From contig NZ_JACIEQ010000003.1 of the NCBI RefSeq assembly GCF_014196965.1, positions 248,001-312,000 of the forward strand: 64,000 bases of DNA, given 5' to 3'. Every line of letters starts with the position of its first letter. Positions within the stretch are counted from its first letter, which is position 1. The position numbers were made by a program, and so were the translations under genes. Below the pieces are notes generated by a model. The model was given only the letters and a program-made list of their open reading frames with translations. It had not been told where the DNA came from and ran no database searches. Of this stretch, positions 21,067-43,137 are shown piece by piece. The stretch is from Actibacterium naphthalenivorans (GTDB lineage: Bacteria > Pseudomonadota > Alphaproteobacteria > Rhodobacterales > Rhodobacteraceae).

Positions 21067-21067
21067 G

Positions 21068-21316
21068 TCAGCCGCCCGTCATCGGCGGAAAGAACGCAAC
21101 CTCGCGCACCCCGTCCAGCGGCGCGTCGAATTCGGTCAGTTCCTGATCGACGGCGACGCGCAGCGCCGTCAGATCGGCAAAGGCGGCGGCATAGCGCTCT
21201 TCGCGGGCCTTCAGTTCCTCGACCAGATCGGCCACGGTGGCGGCCGAGGTCTCCAGCCGCTCTTTCGGCAGGCCGATGCGTTCGCGCACCCAGGCGAAAT
21301 ACAGAATTTCGATCAT
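21068..21316 (-). CDS. moaD: Molybdopterin synthase sulfur carrier subunit
   Basis: An 82-residue ubiquitin-like sulfur carrier. It ends in the diagnostic Gly-Gly (FFPPMTGG), which is adenylylated and thiocarboxylated, and contains VAVDQELTEFDAPL in the middle strand. The ATG at 21316 (MIEILYFAWVRERIG) overlaps the pgsA stop by 4 bp. The downstream moaE begins 1 bp after this stop, so the two synthase subunits are translated together. Confidence 0.93.
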   Translation of the reverse strand: MIEILYFAWVRERIGLPKERLETSAATVADLVEELKAREERYAAAFADLTALRVAVDQELTEFDAPLDGVREVAFFPPMTGG

Positions 21317-27131: not shown

Positions 27132-27614
27132 TCAAAACCCGAACCGGTAACGCAGGCTCAGCTTTTCGACGCCGGGATTGAAACTGCCGGTGTCGCGGTT
27201 GGACTTGTGATCCGTCGCGATCGACAGGTCCGCCCCGTTCGGCAGGCGCATACCGATCCCCCCGAGGGTCCTGAACTCCAGCCCGGGCCCCAGTTCTATC
27301 CCTCCGGGCGACTGGTCGTAATATCCGGTCACGAGGCTCGCCTCGAAGAAATACCGGCTTGCAAACCGTCTGATCACCGCAGGGCCGATACCGGTCCAGA
27401 TATCGCCCTCGTCATCGGCGGTTATCGCGCCGGCGCGGGCGATGTCGAAACCGCCGACCCGCCAGAGCGGCGCGCTGTGCAGTTCCAGGTCAAGCGCCAG
27501 GGCACGGTATCCGCGCCGATTCTGGAAATCCTCTCGGGCGAGGCCGAAAATCAGCTCGCTCTGCCATGTTTCGGCTTCCATGCGTTTCGGTGCGAAAGGC
27601 GAAGATGTATCCAT
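27132..27614 (-). CDS. PagL-like lipid A 3-O-deacylase (acyloxyacyl hydrolase family), no visible signal peptide
   Basis: A 160-residue protein ending in a beta-barrel-like half: IELGPGLEFRTLGGIGMRL, SIATDHKSNRDTGSFNPG, VEKLSLRYRFGF. His136, Ser138 and Glu150 reproduce the spacing of the PagL triad (H-x-S, Glu 12 residues after Ser), and the terminal aromatic matches an outer-membrane protein. PagL removes the 3-linked acyl chain of lipid A. Oddly, the N terminus from the ATG at 27614 (MDTSSPFAPKRMEAETW) is hydrophilic and no export signal is visible upstream either. Either the start is misread, the gene is truncated, or export is unusual. Family confidence is moderate. Confidence 0.65.
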   Translation of the reverse strand: MDTSSPFAPKRMEAETWQSELIFGLAREDFQNRRGYRALALDLELHSAPLWRVGGFDIARAGAITADDEGDIWTGIGPAVIRRFASRYFFEASLVTGYYDQSPGGIELGPGLEFRTLGGIGMRLPNGADLSIATDHKSNRDTGSFNPGVEKLSLRYRFGF

Positions 27615-27661: not shown

Positions 27662-28183
27662 TCAGGCCACCCGGCGCACCGGCCGGCTCAGCGCATCGAA
27701 CCAGCCGGTCAACGCGTCCTGGCACAGCGGCAATGGCGCGGCCAGCCCGCCGGTGAACTCCAGAAACGCCTCGAGGTTCAGCGCGTTGACACCGGTGATC
27801 ACCGGGATGTCGCGCATCAGGGCTTCGCCGATGAGTTCGCGAAACCCCCTGCCCTCTGCCTCATGCTTGCCGAACTTGTTCAGGATCAGGATGCCGGTCT
27901 CGTCGCTCAAACCCGCGGCCACCTCGGCGACCGCCTGTTCCAGCGCGGCAGCGTTCAGCCGGCAGCCTTTCGCGCCACGCCCGAGATATTGCGAAATGCG
28001 GATGACCGGCCCGTCCGGCAGCACCCTGACATCCATGTCGCAGGGCCCGTCGCCCTGCCTCTCGGTGTTGATCTGCACCACACCCGCAACCCGCGTGCCA
28101 CGGGCGGCGAGCCGGGCGGCGAACTGCGCCAGGGCACGGTCGGCCTCTCCTCTCTGGGTGGAGGTGATATAGGCTATGTTCAT
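27662..28183 (-). CDS. DUF2478 family protein, last gene of the iodate-reductase cluster
   Basis: A 173-residue cytosolic protein that I recognise as DUF2478, a family usually encoded next to molybdate transport or molybdoenzyme genes. It has a P-loop-like opening (MNIAYITSTQRGEADRALAQ), GVVQINTER, and GILILNKFGKHEAEGRGFRE, whose NKFGKxEAEG core is the family hallmark. The start is the ATG at 28183; an in-frame ATG at 28237 would run into the HEAT gene. It lies 50 bp after the HEAT-repeat gene on the same strand. A role in molybdenum handling for the adjacent oxidoreductase is inferred from context only. Confidence 0.75.
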   Translation of the reverse strand: MNIAYITSTQRGEADRALAQFAARLAARGTRVAGVVQINTERQGDGPCDMDVRVLPDGPVIRISQYLGRGAKGCRLNAAALEQAVAEVAAGLSDETGILILNKFGKHEAEGRGFRELIGEALMRDIPVITGVNALNLEAFLEFTGGLAAPLPLCQDALTGWFDALSRPVRRVA

Positions 28184-28233: not shown

Positions 28234-30390
28234 TCAACCCGCCGGGCGTGATGCGGCGGGATCGCGGACGGCGGCAAAGGCCTCGAGCAGCACGAAAGCC
28301 TGCTTGCCGCCCAGCCCGCCCTCCAGCAGGCGCCCGGCCGCGCAGGCGTGCAGATCGGCCGACAGGCCGATGGCCCGGGCCAGCGTGTCGATATGATCCG
28401 AGGCCATCAGCGCATCGACAATGGTCTCCGCCCGGCCGCCGGCATCGCCCTGCGACAGGCGGTCAAGCGCCGCGTCGCGCACGATCCGGGCCGGATCGTT
28501 GAGAAAGGGCAGCAACGCATCCGCATCTTCGCCGCTATCGATACGCAGGGCGATGGCGCGGACAAGCGCATCCTCATCGCGCAGGCACAGGGCGCGCAAC
28601 TCCGGTTTCGGGTCGGGATCCGACAGCACCAGTTGCGCCGCCGCCGCCCGCACCACCGGCAGCGGATCGCGCAGGGCCACGCGCGCCGCCAGGGCCACGT
28701 CACCGCAAGGCACGGCATCCGTGTAGCGTTTGCGCATCGCCTCCCACGCCGCAGCGCGCAGCATGTCGTCTTCGGCCGTGGCCTGAACCATCAGCGCCGC
28801 CCCGATCCGGTCTGACGGAAGGTCCGCCGCGATCCCCATGGCGAGCCGCGCCAGATCATCCGCCACTGTCTCGGGGCCTTCGACGGCACGGCGCTTGCGG
28901 CGCTTGGGGGCGGTTTCCTCCGGCGTTTCCTCGGCGGCTTCGGGCGCGCCCGGCTGATACTGGATCGCCGCCAGCGTCGAGGCCATGGCCGCATCCGCGC
29001 CCTGCGCCCCGGCCTCGATGATGTCGCCGTCGGGCGAAATCCGGACCGATGGCGCCGGGCCCTCATCCATCCGCGAGGCGCCCAGATCGGTGGCCGGTTC
29101 CGGCGCATGGGCAACGGTCGCGGCGGTGGCGGGCAGCAAGCGTCCGGTCATCGCCTTGGCCAGCGCCGCTTCGGCGCCGACCTCCCCTTGGCCCGCGCGG
29201 CTGCGAAGCGCGGTCAGTGCGACCATGCGGATCTGCTGCGACGGGTTCGCCAGAAGCGCGATCAGCCGTCCGGTGGCATGCGGATCTTCCAGGCGCGCCA
29301 GCCCCTCTACCGCCGCGATCCGTGCCTCCAGCGGGCGGGTGGCGTCATCCGCCAGTTCGACCAGCGCCAGATCGGCCCGGTTCGGCGCCAGCCGGGCAAC
29401 CGACAGGGCCGCCGCCGCGGCCAGCGTGGCGCCGGCGCTGCGCAGCCATGCCAGCAGGTTGTCCACGAGCGCGGCGTGAAGCTCATGCTCCAGCGGCAAT
29501 TGCAGCCGGTCCAGCGCGGCCGCCTGAACCTTTTCGTCAGCGTCGGACAAGGCCGCGATCGCCAGTTCGGGCCGGCCGGCCGCGAACCGCAGAACGGCGG
29601 CGCGGCGCAGGCCGGCATCGGGATCTTTCAGCGCCAGGGCCGCCGCCCTGTCATCGCCCGCATCCAGCAAGGGCAACCCCAGCGCGCGCAGCGCGGCCAT
29701 GTCATCGCCCAGAATGTGATCCAGATGCGGCGCCAGCGCCTCGGCGCCGGTCGCGGCCAGCGCGGAAAGCGCCCGCTTGCGCCCCAGCCCCTCCTCCGTC
29801 TGGGCCACGGCCAGAAGCCAGGCGGCGCCTTCGCTGCCAAGCCGGGCCAGCGCGCCGAAAACGGGGGCGTCGAGGGTCTGGCCGAACTCGTCATCGCGGG
29901 CGGCGAGCATGTCTTGCACCGCATCCGCGATGCCAAGCCGGGCCAGCGCCTCTATCGCGGCGATCTGCACGTCGAGCCAATCGTCCCAGACGTCATCCTC
30001 ATCTTCCCACGCGACACGGTCGTCACAGCGGCTGGTCACAAGCGCGCGCAGCAGATCGACCGAGCCGCCATCCCCCAGCTCGGCCAGCAGGTGCACGGCG
30101 GCGACCTTGACCTCGCGCACCGGATCGCCCTGGAGCGAGCGCCGGATCGCCGGCGCATCCTCGGGCGCGGCGAAACGGAACAGCGCCTCCATCGCGTCGG
30201 AGCGCACATCGGGGTCTTCGTCGACCAGCGCATCCAGCAGCGCGGCACGGGCGCGTTCGTCGCCGGACGATTGCGCCGCCAGCGCCCGCACCGCGGCGGT
30301 GCGCAGCACGTCGTTCCCGGTGCCCAGATGATGCAAAAGCGCGGGCGTCAGGTCAGGCGCGGCGGGCCGGGGCGTGAGGCGTTGCAACAT
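28234..30390 (-). CDS. HEAT-repeat protein of the iodate-reductase cluster
   Basis: A 718-residue alpha-helical repeat protein. HEAT/PBS-lyase-like units recur throughout: VLRTAAVRALAAQSSGDERA, DEDPDVRSDAMEALFRFA, PVREVKVAAVHLLAELGD, QIRMVALTALRSRAGQG, LPVVRAAAAQLVLSDPD. A low-complexity hinge rich in Glu, Ala and Lys/Arg (about residues 460-530) splits two repeat blocks. There is no signal peptide, so it is cytosolic. The ATG at 30390 follows AAGGAA at a good distance. It sits 69 bp after idrA with a hairpin in the gap. Such scaffolds bind other proteins; a chaperone or assembly role for the Mo enzyme is possible but not shown. Confidence 0.8.
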   Translation of the reverse strand: MLQRLTPRPAAPDLTPALLHHLGTGNDVLRTAAVRALAAQSSGDERARAALLDALVDEDPDVRSDAMEALFRFAAPEDAPAIRRSLQGDPVREVKVAAVHLLAELGDGGSVDLLRALVTSRCDDRVAWEDEDDVWDDWLDVQIAAIEALARLGIADAVQDMLAARDDEFGQTLDAPVFGALARLGSEGAAWLLAVAQTEEGLGRKRALSALAATGAEALAPHLDHILGDDMAALRALGLPLLDAGDDRAAALALKDPDAGLRRAAVLRFAAGRPELAIAALSDADEKVQAAALDRLQLPLEHELHAALVDNLLAWLRSAGATLAAAAALSVARLAPNRADLALVELADDATRPLEARIAAVEGLARLEDPHATGRLIALLANPSQQIRMVALTALRSRAGQGEVGAEAALAKAMTGRLLPATAATVAHAPEPATDLGASRMDEGPAPSVRISPDGDIIEAGAQGADAAMASTLAAIQYQPGAPEAAEETPEETAPKRRKRRAVEGPETVADDLARLAMGIAADLPSDRIGAALMVQATAEDDMLRAAAWEAMRKRYTDAVPCGDVALAARVALRDPLPVVRAAAAQLVLSDPDPKPELRALCLRDEDALVRAIALRIDSGEDADALLPFLNDPARIVRDAALDRLSQGDAGGRAETIVDALMASDHIDTLARAIGLSADLHACAAGRLLEGGLGGKQAFVLLEAFAAVRDPAASRPAG

Positions 30391-30459: not shown

Positions 30460-33135
30460 TCAGGCGATATCGCGGCGGGCGAAAGACATGGAGCGGAACT
30501 GCTTTTTATACGGGCTCTCGCCCATGCGCCGCACCTGCCCCACGCCCATCTTGTAGTTGTAGTTGCCGCTGATCCAGTCGACGACCCGGCCCGACAGCGC
30601 GTTCGCCGGCTGCGCGGTGTGCAGGAAATCCATGTAGCCCATGTTCTCCTTCACCGCCGGGGTAACGATGGCCACCGCCGTGATCGAGGCGCGGGTCAGT
30701 TCGATATGGCCGTTCTTGAGCAGCTTGGCGAAATCGAAATCATCGCCCTCGACACCCACGATCGTATCGGTCTGCACCGGGATCCGGTCGGAGTAGACCT
30801 GCACATAGTCACCGCTTTCGATGCCGTGGGCCTCGGCAAAGCCGGGGTGCAGCTCGATCCAGTTCTCGGGCCAGCGCTGCACGATATAGGGACGGCGGCG
30901 ATCGTCATAGCCCGACTGCCAGCGCTCGTTGATGCGGCCCGAGGTGATCCAGATTTCACCCTCGCGCGGCTTGAGCCATTCCCAGTAGCTGGAAAACAGC
31001 CCCCATGGCGCCTTCTGCAGGTTGCACTTGCCGGTCTGGGTATTGAAATGCGTCAGCTTCTTGTTGAACACATTCGCCCCGCTCGGCCCGGTTTCGGGCA
31101 GCGTGCGCGTGGTGTCATGCAGGCGCTTGGTGCCCTGCAGGCTGCCATCCTCCAGCATCAGAACCGGGCCCTGAATGCCGTTGGTGCCGAACTCGCCCAG
31201 CTTTTCATGCAGGGTCTTGCCCTCGCGTCGCGCGGCCACCAGAACCATGTTGAAATCCTTGCGCGAGCCGCGCGAATGGCGCGCGCCCTCTTCCAGCACG
31301 TCGTTGGAGGTCTGCCAGTCGAAGCCTTCGAAGCCCATCTTGCGCGCAAGCTGGGCGATGATCCACCAATCCGGCTTCGCCTCGCCCGGCGCGTCGTAGA
31401 ATTTGGGATAGAGCCGCAGCCGGCGTTCGCCATTGGCGCGGGTAAAGGTCTCTTCGCCCCAGCCAGAGGCCGGAAAGACGATATCGGCGTAGCGCGCCCC
31501 GATCGGATCGACCAGATAGATATCCTGGTTCCACACCACCATGCCGCCGCTGTCGGCGCGCCGCTTCAGCGTATCGATGATGTCTTTCTTGTCAAAGCTC
31601 ATCACCTGATGCGGGTTGCGCGTGGTCAGTTCGTCGAACTTGGCCTGAAGCGATTGCGACCCGCACATCGCCTGCACCCATGTGGTGCCGATCACATGCG
31701 CCAGCCGCGTGTGGCCCCCCATCAGATAGCGGTCGGTATCCATCGCGCGGCGCCGGCGGCCGGGCAGCTTTTCCGGCGACTTGTTGCGCGGATAGCCGCC
31801 ACCGCGCAGGCCCCCCCGCTGGTGGCCACCGGCACGGCCGATCACCTGGCCCGGCCGCCCGCCCGCACCGACGATGATGCCGAGCGCGGAAATCGCGTTG
31901 GTGTTGCCGGTGTTGTTGGACCAGTAGAACCCCTTTTCGATCATGACCGAGGTCTTGGGCCGGGTGCCGTCGGCCTTGGGCTTGGCCATCCACTCGGCGG
32001 CGGTATAGATCTTCTGCACGTCGATCTGGGCGATCTCGGCGGCCTTTTCGGGCACCGCGTAATCCTGCGCCAGCAGCCATTCCTTCCAGTCTTCGAAACC
32101 GTCTGTCTGAAACATGCCCCAGGTCGTGCGCCACTGCCACGGCGTGTTGCGGGTGCCCTGGCCAAAGCCGGAAGACGACTCCCACTTGCTGTTGACCCAG
32201 TTCCTGATCCACGCGTCATCCTGCCAGCCGTTTTCGACGATCACCCGCGCGATGGCCAGAACCACCGGCAGGTCGGTGCCCGGCTGAATGTCGAGCAGCA
32301 GCCCGCCATTCTTCTCGGCAAAGGCCACGCCCGTGGTGCGCCGCGGCACCATGAAGATCGCCTTCTGCCCGCCCTGGATCGCGGGCATGATGAAATCGGT
32401 GAACAGGATCGTCTTGGTTTCGTAGGGATCGGTGCCGCAGATCAGCAGCGTATCCGCCTCGGCCCAGTCATCATAGGAAGGGCCGAAATTGTCGAAACCC
32501 GCATCGCGGAAGCCGGGGGTCGAGGTTACGTCTGACGGGGTGTCGTGGAAGGTGAAATTCGCCGTGCGCACGTGGCGCAGCGCGTATTTCGTGATGGCGT
32601 AGGTATTCTCCATGTAGCCATAGGAGAATGTCTTGACGTTATAGGCGTTGGTGCCGTGCTTTTCGAGCACGTGGTTGCCGACCTCGGCCGCGATATCCAG
32701 CGCGAAATCCCAGGTCACAGGCATCAGCACGCCGAACATGCGCACCATCGGTGATTTCAGCCGGTCGCGGGTGGGCGTCTGCGGGTTATAGACCTTCTGC
32801 GCGATGGCCCCGCCCCGGATCGACGAGTTACCGGTGTAGTTGACGAACTCGGTATCCTTGTCGGGGATGATCACCACATGGTGCGGCTCGCCGTTGTGCA
32901 GCACGATATTGTGCTGGTTCGGCGCGATCCACGGGCCCAGCGGGTTGACCGGGAAATCCTCGCCAAAGGCGTTCTGATCGGCCAGCGGGCCACCCTGGTG
33001 GCCGCCCCGCACCGGCCAGCGGTAAACCTTGTAGCCACAGGCCACGATGCAATAGTCGCAGGCGGTGGAGATCACATCGGCGTCGGGCGGCGGCAGCGGA
33101 ACGGTTTCTTCCGGAACGTAATACGGTGTGGACAT
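30460..33135 (-). CDS. idrA: Iodate reductase catalytic subunit (Mo-bis-MGD, arsenite-oxidase family)
   Basis: An 891-residue DMSO-reductase-family enzyme that would reduce iodate at a molybdenum centre in the periplasm. The N-terminal cluster motif C26-x2-C29-x3-C33 with Ser104 71 residues later is the 3Fe-4S pattern of arsenite oxidase AioA. The pocket R434-AGG-H438 is shared too. However, the AioA Glu expected 8 residues after the pocket His (H197) is Ser205, and the AioA signature EKGIIWGND reads EKGFYWSNN. Two di-heme peroxidase genes and a Rieske gene in the same operon match idrABP1P2. No own signal peptide is present; export on the Tat signal of IdrB is expected. AGGAGG of its ribosome site overlaps the idrB stop. 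Confidence 0.82.
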   Translation of the reverse strand: MSTPYYVPEETVPLPPPDADVISTACDYCIVACGYKVYRWPVRGGHQGGPLADQNAFGEDFPVNPLGPWIAPNQHNIVLHNGEPHHVVIIPDKDTEFVNYTGNSSIRGGAIAQKVYNPQTPTRDRLKSPMVRMFGVLMPVTWDFALDIAAEVGNHVLEKHGTNAYNVKTFSYGYMENTYAITKYALRHVRTANFTFHDTPSDVTSTPGFRDAGFDNFGPSYDDWAEADTLLICGTDPYETKTILFTDFIMPAIQGGQKAIFMVPRRTTGVAFAEKNGGLLLDIQPGTDLPVVLAIARVIVENGWQDDAWIRNWVNSKWESSSGFGQGTRNTPWQWRTTWGMFQTDGFEDWKEWLLAQDYAVPEKAAEIAQIDVQKIYTAAEWMAKPKADGTRPKTSVMIEKGFYWSNNTGNTNAISALGIIVGAGGRPGQVIGRAGGHQRGGLRGGGYPRNKSPEKLPGRRRRAMDTDRYLMGGHTRLAHVIGTTWVQAMCGSQSLQAKFDELTTRNPHQVMSFDKKDIIDTLKRRADSGGMVVWNQDIYLVDPIGARYADIVFPASGWGEETFTRANGERRLRLYPKFYDAPGEAKPDWWIIAQLARKMGFEGFDWQTSNDVLEEGARHSRGSRKDFNMVLVAARREGKTLHEKLGEFGTNGIQGPVLMLEDGSLQGTKRLHDTTRTLPETGPSGANVFNKKLTHFNTQTGKCNLQKAPWGLFSSYWEWLKPREGEIWITSGRINERWQSGYDDRRRPYIVQRWPENWIELHPGFAEAHGIESGDYVQVYSDRIPVQTDTIVGVEGDDFDFAKLLKNGHIELTRASITAVAIVTPAVKENMGYMDFLHTAQPANALSGRVVDWISGNYNYKMGVGQVRRMGESPYKKQFRSMSFARRDIA

Positions 33136-33147
33136 GTCGGTTCCTCC

Positions 33148-33735
33148 TCAGCCCTGCAGATTGTCAAAACGGCCGTAGATCAGCCCGAACATGCCGACGG
33201 CGTAGATATCGTCGCCATCAAGCTCCAGCAGCACCTGCGGCAGCGACTGATAGGCCTGCCCGGAGATGAAGATGCCATGGCGGGTCAGATCGAACGTCGT
33301 CAGGTGAAGCGGGCATGGGCCCAGCGCCTTGTCGGCGGCCTGGTAGGTGCCCTGCAGCGGCCCGCCCTGATGGGTGCAGGTGTAGTTGAAGGCCACCACA
33401 TCCTTTTCGGGGCCGATACCACCCCCGGCGGCCTTGCCCAGTTTCACGAGGATGGATTCCGCGTAGAGCCCCTCGTCGGGATAGGTGAAATCGAACGGTT
33501 CATCCTGCGCAAGTTCCGACAGTCTGGCGATGAACTTGCGCTCGTAGGTGGATATCACGGCGGGCGTCTGTGCCTGCGGCATGCCCGGCACCCCCACCAT
33601 CACCACGGTGGTGGCGATGCCGCTGGTCAGCAGGAACTGGCGGCGGTTCATCAGGCATTTGCGGGTGCCGGCCTGCGCGGCCTCGCCCTGGGCGCCGTTG
33701 ATGGCGGCGGCGATATTCGGATCGACTTTGGTCAT
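33148..33735 (-). CDS. idrB: Iodate reductase Rieske subunit
   Basis: A 195-residue AioB-like protein passing electrons to the Mo subunit. A twin-arginine signal (NRRQFLLTSG, residues 30-39) follows a 29-residue leader, so the folded heterodimer would be exported by Tat. The 2Fe-2S ligands are C120-T-H122 and C141-PL-H144 (CTHQGGPL, CPLHLTTFD). The extra cysteine pair that forms a disulfide in bc1-type Rieske proteins is replaced by Gly and Leu. I keep the ATG at 33735, which has GGAG 7 bp upstream; an ATG at 33651 starts right at the RR motif but lacks a ribosome site. It is 15 bp after the peroxidase gene and 12 bp before idrA. Confidence 0.85.
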   Translation of the reverse strand: MTKVDPNIAAAINGAQGEAAQAGTRKCLMNRRQFLLTSGIATTVVMVGVPGMPQAQTPAVISTYERKFIARLSELAQDEPFDFTYPDEGLYAESILVKLGKAAGGGIGPEKDVVAFNYTCTHQGGPLQGTYQAADKALGPCPLHLTTFDLTRHGIFISGQAYQSLPQVLLELDGDDIYAVGMFGLIYGRFDNLQG

Positions 33736-33749
33736 CTCCGGTCTCCTTT

Positions 33750-34874
33750 TCAGTTCTGCGCCACGGGCAGCGGTTCCATTTCGGGAAGCTCCGGATCGTC
33801 GGTCAGGATCTCTTCGCCGCTGAGGCTTTCGAGGAAGGCGACAAGATCGTCGATCTCGGCGTCGGACAGGCCGAGCGGCTGGATCAGCGGGCTCTTGTTC
33901 GCGGCGAATTCATTCTCGCCGCCGCCTTCGTTGTAGAACACCACCACATCGCGCAGCGTCTCGAGCATGCCGTTGTGCATGTAGGGATAGGTGTATTGCG
34001 TGTAGCGCAGGCTGGGGGTGCGGAACTTGCCCTTGTCGGATTTTTCCTTGGTGCGGAAATAGAGGCCGGGGTCGTCCTTGGTGTGGCGATACATCTCTTC
34101 GGTCGAACCTTTTCCGTAAAGCTCGAACCGGAAGGTGATCTGGGCGATCGGGTCGTCTTCCCAACCGTCATAGGGCGGCACGCCGGTGTTGTAGTATTTC
34201 TCGTCCGACAGCAGCGGCCCGTTGTGGCAGCTTACGCACTGCGCCTTGCCGGTGAACAGCTCCAGCCCGTTCTTCTGCTGATCGGTCAGCGCATCGTCAT
34301 CGCCGCGCATGTAGTTGTCGAACGGCGTGTCGGTCTGCACCAGCGTCCGCTCATAGGCGGCGATGGCCATATAGGCGTGGCGGATGCTGGGCCAGTCGTC
34401 GCCGAACACCTCGCGGAAGGCTGCGCGGTATTCGGGCACGAAGGCCAGCCGGGCCTCCATCATGTCATCCTCGCCATTGCCGGCAACCCCGCCGCGCGCG
34501 GCCGAACGGGCCTGATGCTCGAGCGAGCCCGAGGCGCCGGCCCAGAAGGTCTTGCCGTAATAGGCAGAGTTGATCACCGTCTGGCTGTTGCGCCAGTGGG
34601 TCGTGCCCGGATAGCCGAAGCTGATCGGCGATTGCACGGCCCAGCCCGCCTCGGGGCGGTGGCAGGACGAACAGGGCATGCCGTAGTTGCCCGACAGGAT
34701 CGGGTCGAAATAGAGCTTCTTGCCCAGTTCGATCTTCGCGGGCGTCATCGGGTTATCCGCGGGGATCGGCGGCGGGCCAAGCGGGGCCAGCGCGGCCGGG
34801 CGATCCGATTGCGCGGCCACCGGCGCGGCGGCCACAGCCGCCAGACCCAGGGCCAAAAGGAATTTGCGTGTCAT
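33750..34874 (-). CDS. Di-heme cytochrome c peroxidase, IdrP1/IdrP2 type (first of two)
   Basis: A 374-residue periplasmic protein of the bacterial cytochrome c peroxidase/MauG superfamily. A cleavable signal (FLLALGLAAVAAAPVAAQ) precedes ELGKKLYFDPILSGN. Two heme sites follow: C68-SS-C71-H72 and C213-VS-C216-H217, with the C-terminal RTPSLRYTQYTYPYMHNGML typical of the family. In iodate reducers the two IdrP peroxidases are proposed to remove peroxide formed during iodate reduction. It is 13 bp from its paralogue gene and 15 bp from idrB, with a GAGGAGG ribosome site overlapping the upstream stop. Which of the pair is P1 or P2 needs a tree. Confidence 0.85.
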   Translation of the reverse strand: MTRKFLLALGLAAVAAAPVAAQSDRPAALAPLGPPPIPADNPMTPAKIELGKKLYFDPILSGNYGMPCSSCHRPEAGWAVQSPISFGYPGTTHWRNSQTVINSAYYGKTFWAGASGSLEHQARSAARGGVAGNGEDDMMEARLAFVPEYRAAFREVFGDDWPSIRHAYMAIAAYERTLVQTDTPFDNYMRGDDDALTDQQKNGLELFTGKAQCVSCHNGPLLSDEKYYNTGVPPYDGWEDDPIAQITFRFELYGKGSTEEMYRHTKDDPGLYFRTKEKSDKGKFRTPSLRYTQYTYPYMHNGMLETLRDVVVFYNEGGGENEFAANKSPLIQPLGLSDAEIDDLVAFLESLSGEEILTDDPELPEMEPLPVAQN

Positions 34875-34887
34875 TGTGCCGGCCTCC

Positions 34888-35961
34888 TCAGTTGTTCACG
34901 TTGCGCCAGTCTTCGATCAGCGAGTAATCGTAATCGTCCTCGCGCCAGACATAGGCGTCGGTGTCGAAGCTCTCGCCCGAAAGGCTTTCGAGATAGGCGA
35001 CCAGATCGGCCTTCTCGCTGGGCACCAGGCCAAGCGGCTTCAGGCGCGGATCCTTCAGCGGGTCGTCGCCACCGCCGGCGTTGTAGAAATCCACCACCTC
35101 TTCCAGCGTCTCCAGCGTGCCGTTGTGCATGTAGGGCGCTGTCCAGGTCAGTTCGCGCAGGCTCGGCGTCAGAAAGCTGCGGGCCTTGTCGGGGTTGTGG
35201 GTGCGGATATAGGCGCCCGGATCCTCGCGCAGGTTCATGTAATTCTCGATGCCCATGAACTTGGCATAGGTCACGAAGGCCGAATGCCGTTCCGGGTCGG
35301 CCCAGATTTCGGGGTTGTCGGCAACGCCGGTGTTGTGGGGCCGGTCGTCGGTGAAGCGCAGGCCGGAATGGCAGCTTGCGCATTGCCCCTTGCCCTCGAA
35401 GATGCCCTGCCCGCGCTGCGCGGCGGCCGAAAGAGCACCGGTATCGACAGGCGCCCCGCGCGACACGATGGTTTTCATGAAATCCATCAGCGCGTTGCGC
35501 GCGCCACCGTTCGACGGCTCGCTCATGCCCGCGGCCCTGAACATCTCGACATAGACCGGGTCCTGCTTGAGCCGCTCCTGCATGATGCGCATGTCCATGT
35601 TCATCAGATAGGTCTCTGTGATCATCTCGCGCGCGACGTCGTTGAGGTTGGTGCCAAGGCGCCCGTCATGCAGCCAGGCGTCGCGATAGCCCACATTGGC
35701 CAGCGTCGGCGTGTTCCGGAAATGCGCGGCGCCGCTATAGGCGTCCGACAGCGGCTGGCCATCGGTAAAGGCCTTGTCGGGCTGGTGGCAGCTTGCGCAG
35801 GCAAGCGCGGTGTCGCCTGACAGACGGTAATCATAGAACAGACGCTTGCCCAACTCGGCTCGCGCCGCGTTGACATCCATCGGCGCGATGGGGGCGCTGT
35901 CTTGGGCGATTGCGGCGGTGCCCGAAAGCAGCACGCAGATAAAAGCGGTTCTCAGCATCAT
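34888..35961 (-). CDS. Di-heme cytochrome c peroxidase, IdrP1/IdrP2 type (second of two)
   Basis: A 357-residue paralogue of the neighbouring peroxidase. The start is the first of two tandem ATGs at 35961, with AAGGAGG 6 bp upstream, giving a signal peptide (MMLRTAFICVLLSGTAAIAQ). A longer frame to 36084 has no signal. Heme motifs are C55-AS-C58-H59 and C194-AS-C197-H198, with LGKRLFYDYRLSGD at the front and TPSLRELTWTAPYMHNGTLE at the back. It lies 141 bp after the cytochrome c gene, so it could have a promoter of its own as well as readthrough. The proposed role is peroxide or intermediate removal next to iodate reductase. Confidence 0.85.
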   Translation of the reverse strand: MMLRTAFICVLLSGTAAIAQDSAPIAPMDVNAARAELGKRLFYDYRLSGDTALACASCHQPDKAFTDGQPLSDAYSGAAHFRNTPTLANVGYRDAWLHDGRLGTNLNDVAREMITETYLMNMDMRIMQERLKQDPVYVEMFRAAGMSEPSNGGARNALMDFMKTIVSRGAPVDTGALSAAAQRGQGIFEGKGQCASCHSGLRFTDDRPHNTGVADNPEIWADPERHSAFVTYAKFMGIENYMNLREDPGAYIRTHNPDKARSFLTPSLRELTWTAPYMHNGTLETLEEVVDFYNAGGGDDPLKDPRLKPLGLVPSEKADLVAYLESLSGESFDTDAYVWREDDYDYSLIEDWRNVNN

Positions 35962-36073
35962 TGCCAGCCTCCTTTCCGGCTGCCCGAACCGGCAACCGGC
36001 CTGTGCCACATCCGCCCGTCGCGGTCTGTTTGCGGCTTGTCCTGTGTCATGGTGTCGTCCTTTCGGCGCGGCG

Positions 36074-36096
36074 GCCGGCCACAACGCGGGGCCGGC
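36074..36096 (-). terminator. Hairpin after the cytochrome c gene
   Basis: GCCGGCC (36074-36080) and GGCCGGC (36090-36096) form a perfect 7-bp stem with a 9-base loop, starting 6 bp after the cytochrome c stop on the minus strand. There is no U-run. It may limit readthrough into the peroxidase genes or stabilise the cytochrome transcript. Function is inferred from position only. Confidence 0.35.
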
Positions 36097-36102
36097 GCGC
36101 GT

Positions 36103-36528
36103 TCATTCGCTGATCCGGGTTCCGTCGGCCTGGAAGGAGGCGAGATAGGCGATCACATTCGCCGCATCCTCGGGCTTGCGCAGCCCCGCGAAACTCATCT
36201 TGTTGCCCGGCAGGAATTTTCGCGGAGCGGCCAGATAGTCCGCCAGCGCCTCTTCGGTCCAGATCAGGCCGCTGCCGCTCATCGCGTCGGAATAGCGGAA
36301 ACCCTCATAGCTTCCCGCCGCGCGGCCCACGACACCGTTCAAAGCCGGGCCGACCCGGGATTTCGCGCCCTCGCCCACCTGATGGCAGGCAGCGCATTTC
36401 TTGAAGATCTTCTCACCCGCCGCCACGTCGCGTGCCTGTGCCGGTGCCGCCAGCGCGATGCCGGCGCACAGGGCCGCGATCGCCCCGCTCCGATTCCGTG
36501 TGTGATTGCCTGAATTCGTCTTGCGCAT
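36103..36528 (-). CDS. Cytochrome c (class I) at the head of the iodate-reductase cluster
   Basis: A 141-residue exported mono-heme cytochrome. A basic N terminus and hydrophobic run ending APAQA form the signal. The heme site is C45-AA-C48-H49 (KKCAACHQVGEGAKSRVGPAL), and the sixth ligand is probably Met111 in NKMSFAG. The overall form is that of cytochrome c2/c550. A GGAGGGG ribosome site precedes the ATG at 36528. As first gene of the cluster it is a natural electron donor between the quinol-oxidising bc1 complex and the Rieske subunit or the peroxidases; that route is inferred. Confidence 0.88.
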   Translation of the reverse strand: MRKTNSGNHTRNRSGAIAALCAGIALAAPAQARDVAAGEKIFKKCAACHQVGEGAKSRVGPALNGVVGRAAGSYEGFRYSDAMSGSGLIWTEEALADYLAAPRKFLPGNKMSFAGLRKPEDAANVIAYLASFQADGTRISE

Positions 36529-36713: not shown

Positions 36714-38933
36714 TCATGCGCCACGCGTATCGAGCATTGCCCGCACGCGCCGGGCCAGCAGCGCGGGATCGACAGGCTTGTCCAGAACGTCGGGCGCGGG
36801 ACCGGACAGGGTGATCCCCGAGGGCGCGTAGCCGGTGCAGAAGATGATCGGAACATCGGGGCGCAGCCGGCGCATGGCTTCGGCCAGTTCCTCGCCGCTC
36901 AGGCCGGGCATGACGACATCGGTGATCACCAGATCATATTGCCGGGGGCGGCGGCTGAACCGCTCCAGCGCGACCACCGAAGAGGTGAACGCCTCGACCT
37001 GATAGCCAAGCCGCAGCAGCATCCGGCGAAAGGTTCCGGCGACTTCGCTTTCATCGTCGATCAGCATCACCCGTTCGCGGCCGCGCGGGATCTCGTCGGG
37101 CGGGGCCTCGCTTTCCAGTTCGGCCTCGCGCGCGCCGGGCAGGAAGATCGCGAAGGTGGTTCCGGTGCCAAGCGCGCTGTCAAGCGCGATCCCGCCCCCC
37201 ATCTCCTCGACCAGCGCCGAGACCACGGCCAGCCCAAGGCCGGAGCCCTTGCCCAGCGGCTTTGTGGTGAAAAACGGATCAAAGAGCTGGCGCCGCGTAT
37301 CGGCGGACATTCCGGGCCCATCGTCTGTCACTTCCAGCCGGACCCAGCCGTCGGGCCGTGGCGCGAGCCCCTCGGGCAGATCCTCGGTAACGGCATGGGC
37401 CGACACGCGGATCGTTCCGCTTGCGCCGCCGATGGCCTCGGCCGCGTTGCGGCACAGGTTCATCAGGATCTGGTGCAGATGCGTGGGGTCGGCCATCACG
37501 ATGAAGGGCTCGACGCCGTCGCAGCAATCGAGCGCGATGGTGGGCGGAATCGAGGCGCGCATCAGGCGCGTGACCTCGAGCATCAGCGTGGTCAGGTTGG
37601 TCGGCTGCGGCCGGCCGGGCTGACGCCGGGCAAAGGTCAGAAGCTCTTTCACCAGGCTTTGCGCCCGCCGCGCGGCGATGTCGATCTGCTCGATCTCGCC
37701 GGCGATCGCGCTGCCTGCGGGCGCGTCCAGCGCGGCCAGATGCGCGGCACCGACGATGGTGGTCAGGATGTTGTTGAAATCATGCGCCACGCCGCCCGCC
37801 AGAAGGCCCACGGCCTCGAGCTTCTGCGCGCGCACCACCTGATCGCGCGCATGGCGCCTTTCGGTGATATCCTCGGCAATGCCGATGAAGTTCTGCACCG
37901 TTCCGTCGGGTCCGATCAGCGGCAGGATGGTCGTTTCCGCCCAGTAGCTGCCACTGTCCTTGCGCCGGTTGCGGAACACCCCCTGCCATGTTTCCCCGCG
38001 CGCGAGGCTTTCCCGGATCTCGCGATAGACCTCGGGCGGGGTGTCGCCCGATTGCAGAAAGCGCGGCGTCTTGCCCTCGACCTCGGCGCGCGTCCAGCCG
38101 GTGATATCCTCGAAACGGCGATTGGCATAGAGTATCCTTGCATCCATATCGGTGATGAAGATCGTCGCCGGGCTCTGCTCGACAGCGGTGGCCAGCCGCA
38201 CCTCGGAGGTTTCCAGCCGGCGACGCACCCGCAGTTCATCGGCCAGACGGTGCATCGCCCGGCGCATATCAAGCAACAGCACCGCGAACAGCACCCCCAG
38301 CGTCAGCGCCGCCACCACCAGCGAGACGACCGACAGGAAACCGACCCAGATCAGCCGCTCGCCTTCTCCGACCGCCTGAATGATCCGCTCGGTGCTTTTC
38401 TGTCGGTTGGCCTGCCACAGGCGTTCAAGCTGGCCCAGTGCCTCTATCGCCGCGGTATCATCGACCCGCACCAGCCGGTCGGTGCGCGCCACGTCCCAGC
38501 CTTCCTGCGCGGCCTGCACGGCGATGGGCAGCTTGACCTCGTATTCGCGCACCGTGGCGCCGATCACCTCCAGCGCGGCGCGTTCCTCGGGGCCGATGGG
38601 TGCGGCCAGGTAATCCTCGATCACCGCCTGGAACTGCTCGAGCTGCACCCTGGTCTGATCCAGACAGAACGGGTCCTGCCGCAGAATGTAATTCTTGAAA
38701 TCGTGGATGACGCCGCCGTATCCCAGATAGCCGCGGATCGAGCTGATCCAGACGCCCTTCTTCCCGGCATCGCCGGAATAGTTCAGCCAGCTTGCCTCGA
38801 TCTCGCGGAACTGGGCGCGGGTCTGGATGCCCAGATAGGGGCCCAGCGACACCGTGACGAGCAGCAGGAAAAGCGCGGCGACACCGATTGCGTAGGATCG
38901 TGCAAGGGATTTGCCGGTGTTCGACCCGTCCAC
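36714..38933 (-). CDS. Hybrid sensor histidine kinase (periplasmic sensor, PAS, HisKA, HATPase, receiver)
   Basis: A 739-residue inner-membrane kinase if begun at the GTG at 38933, which has GGGAG 7 bp upstream. The frame is open to an ATG at 39029, but that would overlap the regulator start. In order: TM1 (about 14-34), a ~160-residue periplasmic sensor region, TM2 (about 195-222), PAS (FITDMDARILYANRRFEDIT), HisKA with His384 in GGVAHDFNNIL, HATPase (NAAEAIGG, DDGPGM, GKGSGLGLAVV), and a C-terminal receiver (MLIDDES, VITDVVMPG, LDKPV). It is divergent from the OmpR-type regulator gene. Its position next to the iodate cluster suggests it controls that cluster. Confidence 0.87.
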   Translation of the reverse strand: MDGSNTGKSLARSYAIGVAALFLLLVTVSLGPYLGIQTRAQFREIEASWLNYSGDAGKKGVWISSIRGYLGYGGVIHDFKNYILRQDPFCLDQTRVQLEQFQAVIEDYLAAPIGPEERAALEVIGATVREYEVKLPIAVQAAQEGWDVARTDRLVRVDDTAAIEALGQLERLWQANRQKSTERIIQAVGEGERLIWVGFLSVVSLVVAALTLGVLFAVLLLDMRRAMHRLADELRVRRRLETSEVRLATAVEQSPATIFITDMDARILYANRRFEDITGWTRAEVEGKTPRFLQSGDTPPEVYREIRESLARGETWQGVFRNRRKDSGSYWAETTILPLIGPDGTVQNFIGIAEDITERRHARDQVVRAQKLEAVGLLAGGVAHDFNNILTTIVGAAHLAALDAPAGSAIAGEIEQIDIAARRAQSLVKELLTFARRQPGRPQPTNLTTLMLEVTRLMRASIPPTIALDCCDGVEPFIVMADPTHLHQILMNLCRNAAEAIGGASGTIRVSAHAVTEDLPEGLAPRPDGWVRLEVTDDGPGMSADTRRQLFDPFFTTKPLGKGSGLGLAVVSALVEEMGGGIALDSALGTGTTFAIFLPGAREAELESEAPPDEIPRGRERVMLIDDESEVAGTFRRMLLRLGYQVEAFTSSVVALERFSRRPRQYDLVITDVVMPGLSGEELAEAMRRLRPDVPIIFCTGYAPSGITLSGPAPDVLDKPVDPALLARRVRAMLDTRGA

Positions 38934-39017: not shown

Positions 39018-39761
39018 ATGCAGGATCATATCCTGATCGTGGATGACGACCGGCAGCTGACGTCATTTCTGGAACGTTTCCTTGCGAAACAGGGTTTTCG
39101 CGCCACCTCGGCCGGAAGCGGTGAACAGATGCGCATGGCGATGGCCCGGCACGAGTTCAGCCTGATCATCCTCGATCTGATCCTGCCGGATGTGGACGGG
39201 TTCGAAATGGCCCGCGAGGTGCGGCGCGACAACCGGGTGCCGATGATCATGCTCAGCGCCCGCGACGAGGTTTATGACCGGATCATCGGGCTGGAACTGG
39301 GCGCCGACGATTATCTCACCAAACCCTATGAGCCGCGCGAGTTGCTGGCGCGCATCCGTTCGGTCCTGCGCCGCAGCAAGCCCGCCGATGCCGAACTCGC
39401 CGGCGCCCTGCCGCCGGTCCGCTTTCTTCGGTTCGGCGATCTGACGCTCGATCTGGTCGAGCGCCGGCTGACGCGTGACGGCGGGGCCGAAGATGTCTAT
39501 CTGACAAGCACGGAATTCGCGCTGCTGCGCGCGCTGGCCCAGGGCGCCGGAGAGGTTCAGACCCGCGAGCGTATCCTCGAAACCGTCTATGGCAATGCGG
39601 TCTCGATCACCGACCGGGCGATCGACGCGCATATCGTCCGGCTGCGGCGCAAGATTGACAATGGCGATGCGGCGGATTCAATGATCCGGACCGTGCATGG
39701 CAGCGGGTACCTGCTTGCCGCCGAGGTCGAGGCCGCGCAGGGCGACGGCACGTCGCAGTGA
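39018..39761 (+). CDS. OmpR-family response regulator
   Basis: A 247-residue two-domain regulator. The receiver (residues 1-120) has the acidic pair in LIVDDDRQ, the phosphorylatable Asp53 (IILDLILPDVDGFE) and Lys102 (YLTKPYEP). The C-terminal winged helix carries YLTSTEFALLRALAQGAGEV, TDRAIDAHIVRLRRKI and RTVHGSGYLL, the PhoB/OmpR DNA-binding fold. The ATG at 39018 follows AAAAGGAAAAAG. It is divergent from the hybrid kinase with 84 bp between the chosen starts, which must hold both promoters. The probable partner is the adjacent kinase, and the probable target is the iodate operon; both are inferences. Confidence 0.9.
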   Translation: MQDHILIVDDDRQLTSFLERFLAKQGFRATSAGSGEQMRMAMARHEFSLIILDLILPDVDGFEMAREVRRDNRVPMIMLSARDEVYDRIIGLELGADDYLTKPYEPRELLARIRSVLRRSKPADAELAGALPPVRFLRFGDLTLDLVERRLTRDGGAEDVYLTSTEFALLRALAQGAGEVQTRERILETVYGNAVSITDRAIDAHIVRLRRKIDNGDAADSMIRTVHGSGYLLAAEVEAAQGDGTSQ

Positions 39762-40451: not shown

Positions 40452-41050
40452 CCGCCCGCGCGGCGGGGCTGGTGGCCTGCCGCCGCTGCGGCCGCGTCCA
40501 TCCGGGCGGGGCGCAGATCTGTCAGCGCTGCGGCGGGCCGATTTCCAGCCGCGAGATCAAAAGCCTGCAACGGGTCTGGGCCTGGCTGTTTGCCGGCATG
40601 ATCCTCTACATTCCCGCCAATATCTATCCCATGCTGCTGACCTCGACCCTGGTCAGCAAACGCGAAAGCACGATCATCGGCGGCGTGATAGACTTGGCGC
40701 ATCACGGGTCTTACGGGGTTGCGCTGATCGTGTTCGTGGCCAGCGTGATGATCCCGATCGGCAAGTTCATCGCCATCAGCTATCTGGCGCTCAGCGTGCA
40801 GTGGCCCATCCGCCAGCACAGCCATTTGCGCCACAGGCTGTACGAAGTGACAGACTTCATCGGCCGCTGGTCGATGATCGACGTGTTTGTGGTTGCGATC
40901 CTGTCATCGCTCGTGCAACTGGATACGGTGGCTACGATCAACCCCGGCATCGCCGCCGTCAGCTTTGCACTATCGGTGGCCTTCACGATGCTTTCGGCCC
41001 AAAGTTTCGATTCACGAACAATCTGGGACAGTGACAGACCCGCGGAATGA
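40421..41050 (+). CDS. PqiA-domain membrane protein, C-terminal half equivalent
   Basis: A 209-residue partner of the preceding gene, starting at the ATG at 40421 inside it in another frame. It has its own zinc ribbon (CRRCGRVHPG ... CQRCGGPI) followed by AGMILYIPANIYPMLLTSTL, HHGSYGVALIVFVASVMIPIGK and FIGRWSMIDVFVVAILSSLV, the strongly conserved PqiA core. It ends with an ATGA overlap into the MCE gene, so the split PqiA and PqiB are translationally coupled. Confidence 0.87.
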   Translation: MEIAGKPGPLTARAAGLVACRRCGRVHPGGAQICQRCGGPISSREIKSLQRVWAWLFAGMILYIPANIYPMLLTSTLVSKRESTIIGGVIDLAHHGSYGVALIVFVASVMIPIGKFIAISYLALSVQWPIRQHSHLRHRLYEVTDFIGRWSMIDVFVVAILSSLVQLDTVATINPGIAAVSFALSVAFTMLSAQSFDSRTIWDSDRPAE

Positions 41051-43137
41051 ACGACGTTACCCCCCCTGAACCCGAGATCCGGCCGGCACGGCCCGCATTC
41101 TGGCAGCGGCTGTCGGTGGTCTGGCTGGTGCCGGTTCTGGCGCTGGCCATTTCGCTGGGCGTGGCCTGGCAGAACTATTCGCATCGCGGCCGGCTGGTTG
41201 AAATCTCTTTCGCCAATGCCACCGGCGTGGTGGCCGGCAGCACCGCGATCAAGTTTCGCGACGTGACGGTCGGCACGGTCGAGAAGGTCGGCTTTTCCGG
41301 CGACCTGTCGCGCGTCATCATCACCGCCCGGATCGACAGGGATGTCATCCCGTTTCTCGACGAAGACGCGCGGTTCTGGGTGGTGCGCCCGCAGGTTTCC
41401 GTGCGCGGCATCTCGGGGCTCGATACGGTTCTGTCGGGCGTGTTCATCGAAGGATCGTGGAATTCACAGAGAGGTACCGCGCGGCGCAGCTTTACGGGGC
41501 AGGACGAGCCGCCGCTGGTGCGCCCGGGCCAGCCCGGCACCCAGATCGAACTGCACGCCCGCGACGGCAACAAGCTGGCCGCCGGGGCGCCGATCCTGCA
41601 CAAGGGGGTCAAGGTGGGCTATATCGAGGAACCGCGGCTGAGCCCGTCGGGCGATGGGGTGGTGGTTCAGGCCTTCATCGAAGGCCCGCATGACCGGCGC
41701 ATCACCTCGGCCACGCGGTTCTGGGACACGTCGGGATTTTCCGTCTCGCTCGGGACGGCGGGGGTGACGCTGAACATGAGCAGCCTTGCCTCGCTGGTGG
41801 AAGGCGGGGTCAGCTTCGACACGCTGATCTCGGGTGGCGATCCGATCACCCAGGGGCAGGTGTTCGACATCTATGAAGACGAGGCTGCCGCCCGCGAAAG
41901 CCTGTTCAACGACGCGACCGCCGCGCCGGACGATCTGCACCTGTCGGTGCTGTTCGACGGGTCGGTCAGCGGGCTGACCCCCGGCGCCGATGTGCGCTTT
42001 CGGGGCGTTCGGATCGGCGAGGTGTCAGACCTGATCGCGCAGGTGGAAGAGGTTGACGGGCGGCGCCGCATCCGGCTTCTGGTCAACCTCACGATCAAGC
42101 CGAGCCGCCTGGGCTTTGGCGATGATCTGAGCGCCGAAGGCGTGATGACGCTGTTGCAGGATTACGTTGCGCGCGGCCTGCGCGCCCGGCTCGCGACCAG
42201 CAGCATCCTGACCGGCGCGCTGATCGTCGAACTCGTCGAGCTGACCGAGTACACCCCCGCCACCATCGACATGGAGGCGAAACCCTATCCCGTGCTGCCC
42301 GCCACCGAAGCCGAGCTTTCGGATTTCGACGCGACGGCAGAGGGGGTATTCGAACGCATCAACGCGCTTCCGGTCGAAGAGCTTCTGTCTTCGGCCATAT
42401 CGCTGATGGACAGTCTGGAGCGGCTGGCCAACGATCAGGCATTGCAGGAAACGCCCCGCACCATGAACGCGCTTCTGGACGAGGCGCGCGCGCTGATCGG
42501 ATCGGCCGACACCCAGGCGGTGCCGGGCGAGGTGCGGGCCGCGATCGGCGATCTGCGCAAGATCACCGACGAGCTGGAACAGGCCCGCACGGTGGCAAAG
42601 CTGAACGACGCGATCGACAGCGCAGCCTCGGCTGCCGCCAATATCGACACGGCCGCGGCCGACCTTCCGGAGATCACCGAACAGGTCAAGGCGCTGGGCG
42701 ACAAGGCCAACAGCCTGGCCGTGGAAGAGCTGGTCGACGCCGCCACCAGGGCGCTGGCCTCGATCGATGCGCTGATCGGCACCGAGGATGCGCGGCAGCT
42801 TCCTCCGGCCCTGACCGGCGCGCTGAACCAGGTGCGCGGCTTTCTGGCCGAACTGCGTGAAGGCGGCGCCATCGGTAACGTCAACTCCGCGCTGGCATCG
42901 GCCGAGGCGGCGGCGGATGCCGTCGAAAACGCCGCCGCCAGCCTGCCCGCCCTGTCGGAACGTCTGAGCCGGGTCGTGGCCGAGGCCGAAGCCCTGCTTG
43001 GCAGCTACGGCGAGCGATCCCGTTTCAACGCCGAAACACTTGCCACCTTCCGCGACATCCAATCCGCGGCCAACGCCATACGCACGCTGGCCCGGACGCT
43101 GGAGCGTGACCCCAACTCGATCCTGTTTGGAAAATGA
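41047..43137 (+). CDS. pqiB: PqiB-type MCE (MlaD-domain) lipid transport protein
   Basis: A 696-residue protein anchored by one N-terminal helix (VVWLVPVLALAISLGVAW). Three MCE domains follow: EISFANATGVVAGSTAIKFR (about 50-130), IELHARDGNKLAAGAPILHK (about 158-260) and LSVLFDGSVSGLTPGADVRF (about 300-400). The long Ala/Glu-rich helical C terminus (about 430-696) could build the needle that spans the periplasm in E. coli PqiB, and is longer than that of the E. coli protein. It moves lipids between inner and outer membranes. It sits between the split pqiA genes and a PqiC-like lipoprotein gene. Confidence 0.88.
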   Translation: MNDVTPPEPEIRPARPAFWQRLSVVWLVPVLALAISLGVAWQNYSHRGRLVEISFANATGVVAGSTAIKFRDVTVGTVEKVGFSGDLSRVIITARIDRDVIPFLDEDARFWVVRPQVSVRGISGLDTVLSGVFIEGSWNSQRGTARRSFTGQDEPPLVRPGQPGTQIELHARDGNKLAAGAPILHKGVKVGYIEEPRLSPSGDGVVVQAFIEGPHDRRITSATRFWDTSGFSVSLGTAGVTLNMSSLASLVEGGVSFDTLISGGDPITQGQVFDIYEDEAAARESLFNDATAAPDDLHLSVLFDGSVSGLTPGADVRFRGVRIGEVSDLIAQVEEVDGRRRIRLLVNLTIKPSRLGFGDDLSAEGVMTLLQDYVARGLRARLATSSILTGALIVELVELTEYTPATIDMEAKPYPVLPATEAELSDFDATAEGVFERINALPVEELLSSAISLMDSLERLANDQALQETPRTMNALLDEARALIGSADTQAVPGEVRAAIGDLRKITDELEQARTVAKLNDAIDSAASAAANIDTAAADLPEITEQVKALGDKANSLAVEELVDAATRALASIDALIGTEDARQLPPALTGALNQVRGFLAELREGGAIGNVNSALASAEAAADAVENAAASLPALSERLSRVVAEAEALLGSYGERSRFNAETLATFRDIQSAANAIRTLARTLERDPNSILFGK

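Follow-up and report, generated by a model that had tools for sequence, protein, structure and literature searches.

Clusters of the four genes idrABP1P2 have been described in Pseudomonas sp. SCT, Denitromonas sp. IR-12, Azoarcus sp. DN11 and Aromatoleum sp. TC-10; according to the published scheme, the periplasmic iodate reductase (Idr) subunits IdrAB reduce iodate to hypoiodous acid, which then disproportionates, while IdrP1 and IdrP2 remove peroxide (the model for strain SCT differs in that it invokes a Cld-like enzyme) (PMC8692401). The same four genes are carried by three marine alphaproteobacteria, Roseovarius azorensis, Notoacmeibacter marinus and Aliiroseovarius sediminilitoris, in which the likeness to the present organism lies in the class and in the expected physiology, iodate reduction under low oxygen (PMC11445184). 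Here we describe an operon of this kind in a 64,000-nucleotide stretch of Actibacterium naphthalenivorans (contig NZ_JACIEQ010000003.1, positions 248,001 to 312,000; “the window”). From the gene content, motifs, clade, residue changes and neighbor conservation observed here, we consider it very probably the iodate reductase operon of a mostly alphaproteobacterial clade (clade I, below), one that also has a regulator pair of its own and, likely, partners for maturation; to judge from its sequence, the operon is most likely working. Its genes, with a cytochrome c gene that stands outside the four idr genes, are:

30460..33135, minus strand: idrA, 891 amino acids, molybdopterin catalytic subunit of clade I (Molybdopterin and Rieske_3 domains)
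33148..33735, minus strand: idrB, 195 amino acids, Rieske [2Fe-2S] subunit with a Tat-like signal (TIGR02694)
33750..34874, minus strand: idrP1, 374 amino acids, di-heme cytochrome c peroxidase-like protein, adjoining idrB (CCP_MauG)
34888..35961, minus strand: idrP2, 357 amino acids, second di-heme cytochrome c peroxidase-like protein (CCP_MauG)
36103..36528, minus strand: cytochrome c, 141 amino acids, small and mono-heme (Cytochrom_C)

The gaps in order of transcription (cytochrome c/P2/P1/B/A) are 141, 13, 14 and 12 base pairs (bp) if the idrP2 start is taken as 35961 (the list of open reading frames, ORFs, begins it at TTG 36084), and a purine-rich, ribosome-site-like stretch, judged by eye, precedes all five starts. 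IdrP1 and IdrP2 each carry two CxxCH motifs and the cytochrome c one; IdrB has the Tat-like motif NRRQFLL and the Rieske motif CXHX18CX2H, matching the Tat motif and CXHX18CX2H published for it, and the cofactor motif of IdrA, CX2CX3CX71S, is one residue longer than the published CX2CX3CX70S (PMC10149662). Idr is described with Sec signal peptides on IdrP1 and IdrP2 and with none on IdrA; by eye, the N-termini here are hydrophobic in IdrP1 and IdrP2 and not in IdrA. The Pfam matches are far beyond chance (Molybdopterin, E 2.2e-32; Rieske_3, E 4.3e-34; CCP_MauG, E 7e-42 for IdrP1 and 7.8e-36 for IdrP2, the latter scanned from the 36084 start). Thus, ORFs, Pfam and motif scan bear out what had been read from the sequence alone (the “original prediction”): five minus-strand genes at this place, with these gaps and motifs.

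With the four described clusters the window shares the order idrP2-P1-B-A (from 35961 to 30460, and identical in the relatives), the IdrB Tat motif, the [3Fe-4S] and Rieske motifs, two CxxCH per P protein and the lack of a chlorite dismutase match, none being found in this 99.99%-complete genome and Denitromonas IR-12 likewise having none (PMC8692401). It differs from them in that its IdrA belongs to another clade, as judged through an Azonexus relative (50% identity), and that a HEAT-repeat gene follows idrA; where the window has an OmpR-type regulator and a hybrid kinase, DN11 has a sigma-54 regulator and an AtoS-like kinase (PMC10149662). Identity to the corresponding Azonexus genes is 58% for IdrP1 and 45% for IdrP2, and no match to the Azonexus moaA was found in the window. 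The arsenite oxidase AioAB of Pseudorhizobium banfieldiae NT-26 belongs to the same molybdoenzyme family, with the same cofactor motifs, a Rieske partner and a related cytochrome c; however, identity is 27-29%, four second-sphere residues differ and, unlike the window, NT-26 Aio has AioX/AioR-type regulators and no di-heme proteins.

Separation of IdrA from arsenite oxidase

A search for relatives confirmed 147 loci, of which the best 80 were kept, a choice biased toward near relatives; among these 80, the closest named relative of IdrA is that of Thalassovita taeanensis (92% identity over all 891 residues). Gene calls were made by a home-made codon scorer, some of whose misses (e.g., L012 and L016) were recovered by profile search. 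Relatives, plasmid records and further genomes together gave 90 tree rows, made up of AioA, clade B and clade I (ArxA references are not among them); 17 near-duplicates from Ruegeria, Pseudovibrio and Labrenzia were kept off the tree and are included in the tallies of HEAT genes, di-heme genes and residues. Each set forms one group: AioA with 13 rows, the NT-26 and Thermus plasmid copies among them; clade B with 4 (plasmids of Azonexus hydrophilus and Thiothrix subterranea, and genomes G437 and G629); and clade I with 73, including the window. Support by the Shimodaira-Hasegawa-like approximate likelihood-ratio test (SH-aLRT) is 100 for AioA, 100 for clade B and 89 for clade I. The original prediction had named a large subunit inside the AioA clade as the result that would speak against it; IdrA falls outside, on the far side of a long branch (SH-aLRT 100) that separates the 13 AioA rows from the 77 IdrA rows.

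The same division is visible around the active site. The second-sphere residues of the NT-26 enzyme are D169, H199, R201, E207, K413, R447, H451 and E453 (PMC10448176), and all eight are constant in 13/13 AioA rows. Four of them, H199, K413, R447 and H451, are retained in all 107 rows (AioA, clade I and clade B). At D169, R201, E207 and E453 the window IdrA has S, T, S and R, four replacements out of eight; across clade I these positions hold S (90/90), T or H (90/90), S or A (90/90) and R (90/90), and in the 4/4 clade B rows S, K, D, and R or C.

Partner genes tell the same two groups apart. Counted as separate genes, with cross-matches between the paralogues excluded, two di-heme genes stand by idrA in 80 of 90 clade I loci and 2 of 4 clade B loci, the other 12 having less than 1.9 kilobases (kb) of upstream sequence; no such gene was found in any of the 13 AioA stretches (4.6-12 kb each), which agrees with the earlier statement that arsenite oxidase operons lack paired di-heme peroxidases. 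Family models do not make this distinction: both NCBIfam arsenite oxidase models score above their cut-offs in the window (TIGR02693, 434.6 bits against 359.05; TIGR02694, 113.7 against 95.65), as forecast by the original prediction, which had expected automated annotation to call the operon arsenite oxidase, and the best solved relatives by sequence are AioA structures. TIGR02693 and TIGR02694 do not tell Idr from Aio; in the rows compared, the two are distinguished by the four residue positions and by the paired di-heme genes.

Genes that accompany the operon

The operon is flanked by further genes, some of which recur beside idrA in other genomes:

28234..30390, minus strand: HEAT-repeat protein, 718 amino acids, 69 bp downstream of idrA (HEAT_2, 7.1e-21)
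27662..28183, minus strand: DUF2478 protein, the next gene after the HEAT gene (PF10649, 1.1e-52)
36714..38933, minus strand: membrane hybrid histidine kinase with a periplasmic helical sensor, PAS, HisKA, HATPase and receiver domains (start codon uncertain, the frame being open to 39029)
39018..39761, plus strand: OmpR-type response regulator, divergent from the kinase (Response_reg and Trans_reg_C)

A profile built from 42 HEAT proteins of clade I loci places such a gene beside idrA in 83 of the 88 assessable clade I loci (2 more were too short to judge). Four of the 83 matches score low, three because of their place at the end of a contig or simply there, and one in L139, which is a distant relative; the loci without it are L075, L078, L088, L136 and L141. 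It matched nothing in the 4 clade B loci, in the further clade B loci L211 and L212 or in the 11 assessable AioA loci (2 more AioA loci were too short). The AlphaFold2 model is a solenoid (mean predicted local distance difference test score, pLDDT, 89) with a loose linker at about 430-510. Function could not be read from this structure, which matches only generic HEAT or designed-repeat proteins (PP2A scaffold, karyopherins, CAND1). Since the protein has no heme motif in its sequence and no signal peptide visible by eye, our best guess is a cytoplasmic helper for IdrA, a maturation or assembly factor. The word “HEAT” is absent from the main text of PMC10149662, PMC11445184 and PMC10989891, a scope that leaves aside figures and supplements (in the main text of PMC11445184, “regulator” and “two-component” are absent as well); in the main text of PMC8801600 and in PMC8692401, “heat” is used for heat-killed controls or for heats of formation; the gene may be drawn in Figure 3 of PMC8801600. 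Literature searches joining iodate, idrA and HEAT repeat found only partial overlaps, concerning Huntington or eye disease, and those joining HEAT repeat, molybdoenzyme and chaperone found no paper. We know of no HEAT-type maturation or export-proofreading factor for any other molybdoenzyme.

The kinase and regulator occur together in idr loci. In 32 of 107 loci, that of the window among them, a kinase match above 350 bits is found at a distance of about 5.2-6.1 kb from idrA; in Ruegeria loci with a regulator match, the kinase is on the opposite side, about 6.9 kb past the idrA start. Among 198 genomes of the window's family, taken to be Rhodobacteraceae, IdrA is present in 11 (four of them, G834, G810, G404 and G927, as pieces only) and the kinase sensor scores above 200 bits in 7, all of which have IdrA and, no more than about 10 kb from idrA, the kinase. 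The next sensor score, 112 bits, belongs to an IdrA genome (G805) with the match on a different contig, and the best without IdrA is 70 bits; this association (Fisher 1.6e-10) ignores kinship and comes from a profile made from idr loci, which favors idr-linked copies, and 4 of the 11 IdrA genomes are without the high-scoring sensor. At a threshold of E 1e-10, 30 of 385 genomes of the class have a sensor match; apart from that of the window's genome, these score about 162 bits or less. The sensor domain thus also occurs away from idr, and it is the high-scoring group alone that goes with idr. An attempt to read iodate sensing from the sensor fold was unsupported: the fold is a helical bundle, and bundles of many kinds rank alike (Foldseek ranks first the sensor of a different kinase, 4k0d, E 9e-4, and third a NarQ fragment, E 0.014; in VIA-align, the 50 rows listed have Z 10.6-14.9, with many bundles, designed ones included, ranked alike).

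Both IdrA clades are present in the window's family. Genomes G629 (assigned to clade B by the tree), G894 and G910 (by identity) carry a clade-B-like IdrA, 64-65% identical to Azonexus and 51% to the window, and beside it a related kinase (52-60%) and regulator (49-60%) in the same order as in the window; the HEAT profile found nothing in their idr loci. In this family, then, kinase and regulator accompany either enzyme clade and the HEAT gene goes with clade I, and the related kinases and regulators beside both clades are the best sign in these data that the two answer to one shared signal. Tentatively, and with more doubt than confidence, we propose that Idr may have in the HEAT protein a fifth component, specific to clade I and active in the cytoplasm in IdrA maturation or export proofreading, and that the kinase/OmpR pair may be an iodate sensor placed by this family before two Idr lineages.

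The cytochrome c was rejected as a standard part of the cluster: at E 1e-8 no match was found in 79 of 80 loci (small cytochromes that diverged may have escaped this search), and the sole match, in L025, lies about 4.9 kb from the idrA start on the other strand. A 59% relative at the same place in the clade B locus L143 (genome G629) partly reinstates the association, and cytochrome c is known to occur as an optional extra near idr, as described for strain SCT (PMC10149662) and in five of ten genomes (PMC8801600). Of the earlier claim that the window holds exactly the idrABP1P2 set, the four idr genes stand and the cytochrome c drops out as such an extra. It is 51% identical to the cytochrome beside aioBA of NT-26, which we take to be c552. 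NT-26 Aio passes electrons to cytochrome c552 (PMC5574378); by this analogy, and given the 51% identity, the window cytochrome c likely feeds electrons to IdrB, a flow opposite to that of NT-26 Aio.

DUF2478 matches occur in 17 of 80 loci, ten of them downstream on the same strand; the gene also lies directly after clade B idrA in L143 and L211 (genomes G629 and G894). Since it is found near one aioBA as well (L149), it may be tied to molybdenum cofactor supply. Together, the HEAT gene, the kinase/regulator pair and DUF2478, which the original prediction did not mention, are suggested by these sequence comparisons as unstudied candidate partners of Idr.

Other genes were seen near idr in part of the loci. 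Genes for a cytochrome bd subunit I-like protein, for multi-heme cytochromes c and for a heme protein of the ethylbenzene-dehydrogenase type form a module beside P2 or after the HEAT gene (L130:21-5182, L133:14432-19328, L139:259-5927, L217:14167-19900 and L219:5177-10315; identified by Pfam scan in L130 and L139 and by sequence resemblance in the others), a candidate for a dedicated quinol-to-cytochrome unit for Idr. Among 81 loci, 22 have a small cupredoxin gene nearby (e.g., L012:14859-15353; cupredoxin by Pfam), 22 MoeA-like genes and 19 Crp-like regulators (these last two named by eye). In the window, a PagL-type lipid A deacylase gene (27132-27581) lies between DUF2478 and an S49 peptidase gene; at E 1e-8, none of the 80 idr loci matches it.

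The genome (4.09 megabases) has one TIGR02693 match above cut-off. The window has 24 called genes between 5.9 and 27.0 kb, and the single same-genus genome searched, which has no IdrA, matches 21 of them with their order kept; synteny ends on the idr side, and for the gene at 41047-43137 there is no more than a relative at 36% identity, located elsewhere. Thus idr is located in a variable stretch. The break could stem from gain in this genome or from loss in the other; a recent mobile-element origin was considered and is unsupported, the window having no tRNA gene and no break in guanine-cytosine (GC) content. The moaE gene, a ThiS-family (moaD-like) gene and a MoCF_biosynth gene (20614-21316 and 7987-8529) look like housekeeping genes, since the sister genome without idrA has them too. 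Promoter and terminator scans gave nothing above shuffles. Elsewhere in the window, a 762-amino-acid ORF (53026-55314) fuses a pyridine nucleotide-disulfide reductase, a patatin-like phospholipase and DUF3734.

Iodate and the rival explanations

That the locus encodes an AioAB arsenite oxidase with unusual neighbors would fit the two NCBIfam matches, the AioA structures among its best solved relatives and the retention of His199, Arg447 and His451, three of the four residues termed pivotal in NT-26 (PMC10448176); yet its large subunit separates from the AioA clade with full support, replacements at four of the eight second-sphere positions occur in 94/94 IdrA rows, the di-heme partners are missing from all AioA stretches and no ars or aioX genes were recognized around the operon (only some neighbors were scanned against families), and we regard this reading as very improbable. 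Scarcely credible is a cluster that has decayed or fallen silent and serves no function today: the same-genus genome lacks idrA, and another genome of the family, G927, shows in the stretch covered only the 3' part of a clade-B-like idrA (L218:9979-11145), with a transposase-like gene downstream, but here the reading frames are uninterrupted and complete, every cofactor motif is preserved, there is no GC break and identity to relatives reaches 92% over 891 residues.

An improbable alternative is a clade I oxyanion reductase with the gene order of a true Idr and a main substrate other than iodate (e.g., bromate). Clade I is about 50% identical to clade B, the HEAT gene is found with clade I only, and the two clades differ at two active-site positions, T versus K at NT-26 R201 (T or H across clade I) and S versus D at E207 (S or A across clade I). 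Several points weigh on the same side against iodate in clade I. The tree rows include no biochemically or genetically tested IdrA (an idr gene deletion has been published for Denitromonas IR-12; PMC8692401), and all iodate respirers confirmed by the time of PMC8801600 form one small clade. That clade looks like clade B and not like clade I, given its neighbors, a two-component system, a cytochrome and moaA (of its ten genomes, two are without the two-component system, five without a c551-like cytochrome and five without moaA; PMC8801600): the order in Azonexus L089 is an ATP-binding protein (read as a kinase), a sigma-54 regulator, P2, P1, B, A, a cytochrome and moaA. For the marine strains, the main text of PMC11445184 gives neither identity nor clade of IdrA; the 99.4 kDa quoted there for Roseovarius azorensis IdrA, set against computed masses of 99.5-101.7 kDa for clade I and 99.4-99.7 kDa for clade B, decides nothing and leans, if anything, to clade B, which slightly lowers our confidence in iodate reduction by clade I and slightly raises the case for another substrate. 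In favor of iodate, the same-family clade B operons (L143, L211 and L212) have a related kinase and regulator in the same order, a frame that suggests one signal and one substrate, and the three idr-bearing marine alphaproteobacteria, which may belong to either clade, do reduce iodate, with idr transcripts up with iodate under static conditions in one strain of the three (PMC11445184). Taken together, iodate is well supported by these comparisons as the probable clade I substrate. The original prediction that the organism can respire or detoxify iodate can be kept for iodate reduction, as predicted from sequence; “respire” is unsupported, the tested marine aerobic relatives having reduced iodate and shown no anaerobic growth on it (PMC11445184).

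Proposed pathway and significance

If the operon is an iodate reductase operon, the periplasmic sensor of the kinase would respond to iodate or to a redox signal related to it, and the kinase would act on the OmpR-type regulator to turn the operon on. The molybdenum cofactor would be inserted into IdrA in the cytoplasm, perhaps with the HEAT-repeat protein holding IdrA, and IdrA would be exported together with IdrB via the Tat system. In the periplasm, quinol electrons would pass through bc1 and the cytochrome c (36103-36528) to the Rieske center of IdrB, and from there through the [3Fe-4S] cluster to the molybdenum of IdrA, where iodate would be reduced to hypoiodous acid; this would disproportionate to iodide and iodate, and IdrP1 and IdrP2 would remove peroxide. 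Substrate, periplasmic site and chemistry in this scheme are carried over from papers on other strains, and the parts given to the cytochrome, HEAT protein, DUF2478 and kinase are those we infer for this organism.

The iodide of surface seawater, part of which comes from bacterial iodate reduction, influences ozone and aerosol chemistry (PMC11445184). Since current models accept idr genes as arsenite oxidase, counts of the trait easily come out too low. The HEAT gene, the kinase and the regulator offer knock-out targets bearing on the induction of idr by sub-micromolar iodate and on the further needs of the enzyme. Iodate reductase is a known kind of enzyme; what this locus adds is a better-defined surrounding system with unstudied candidate partners.

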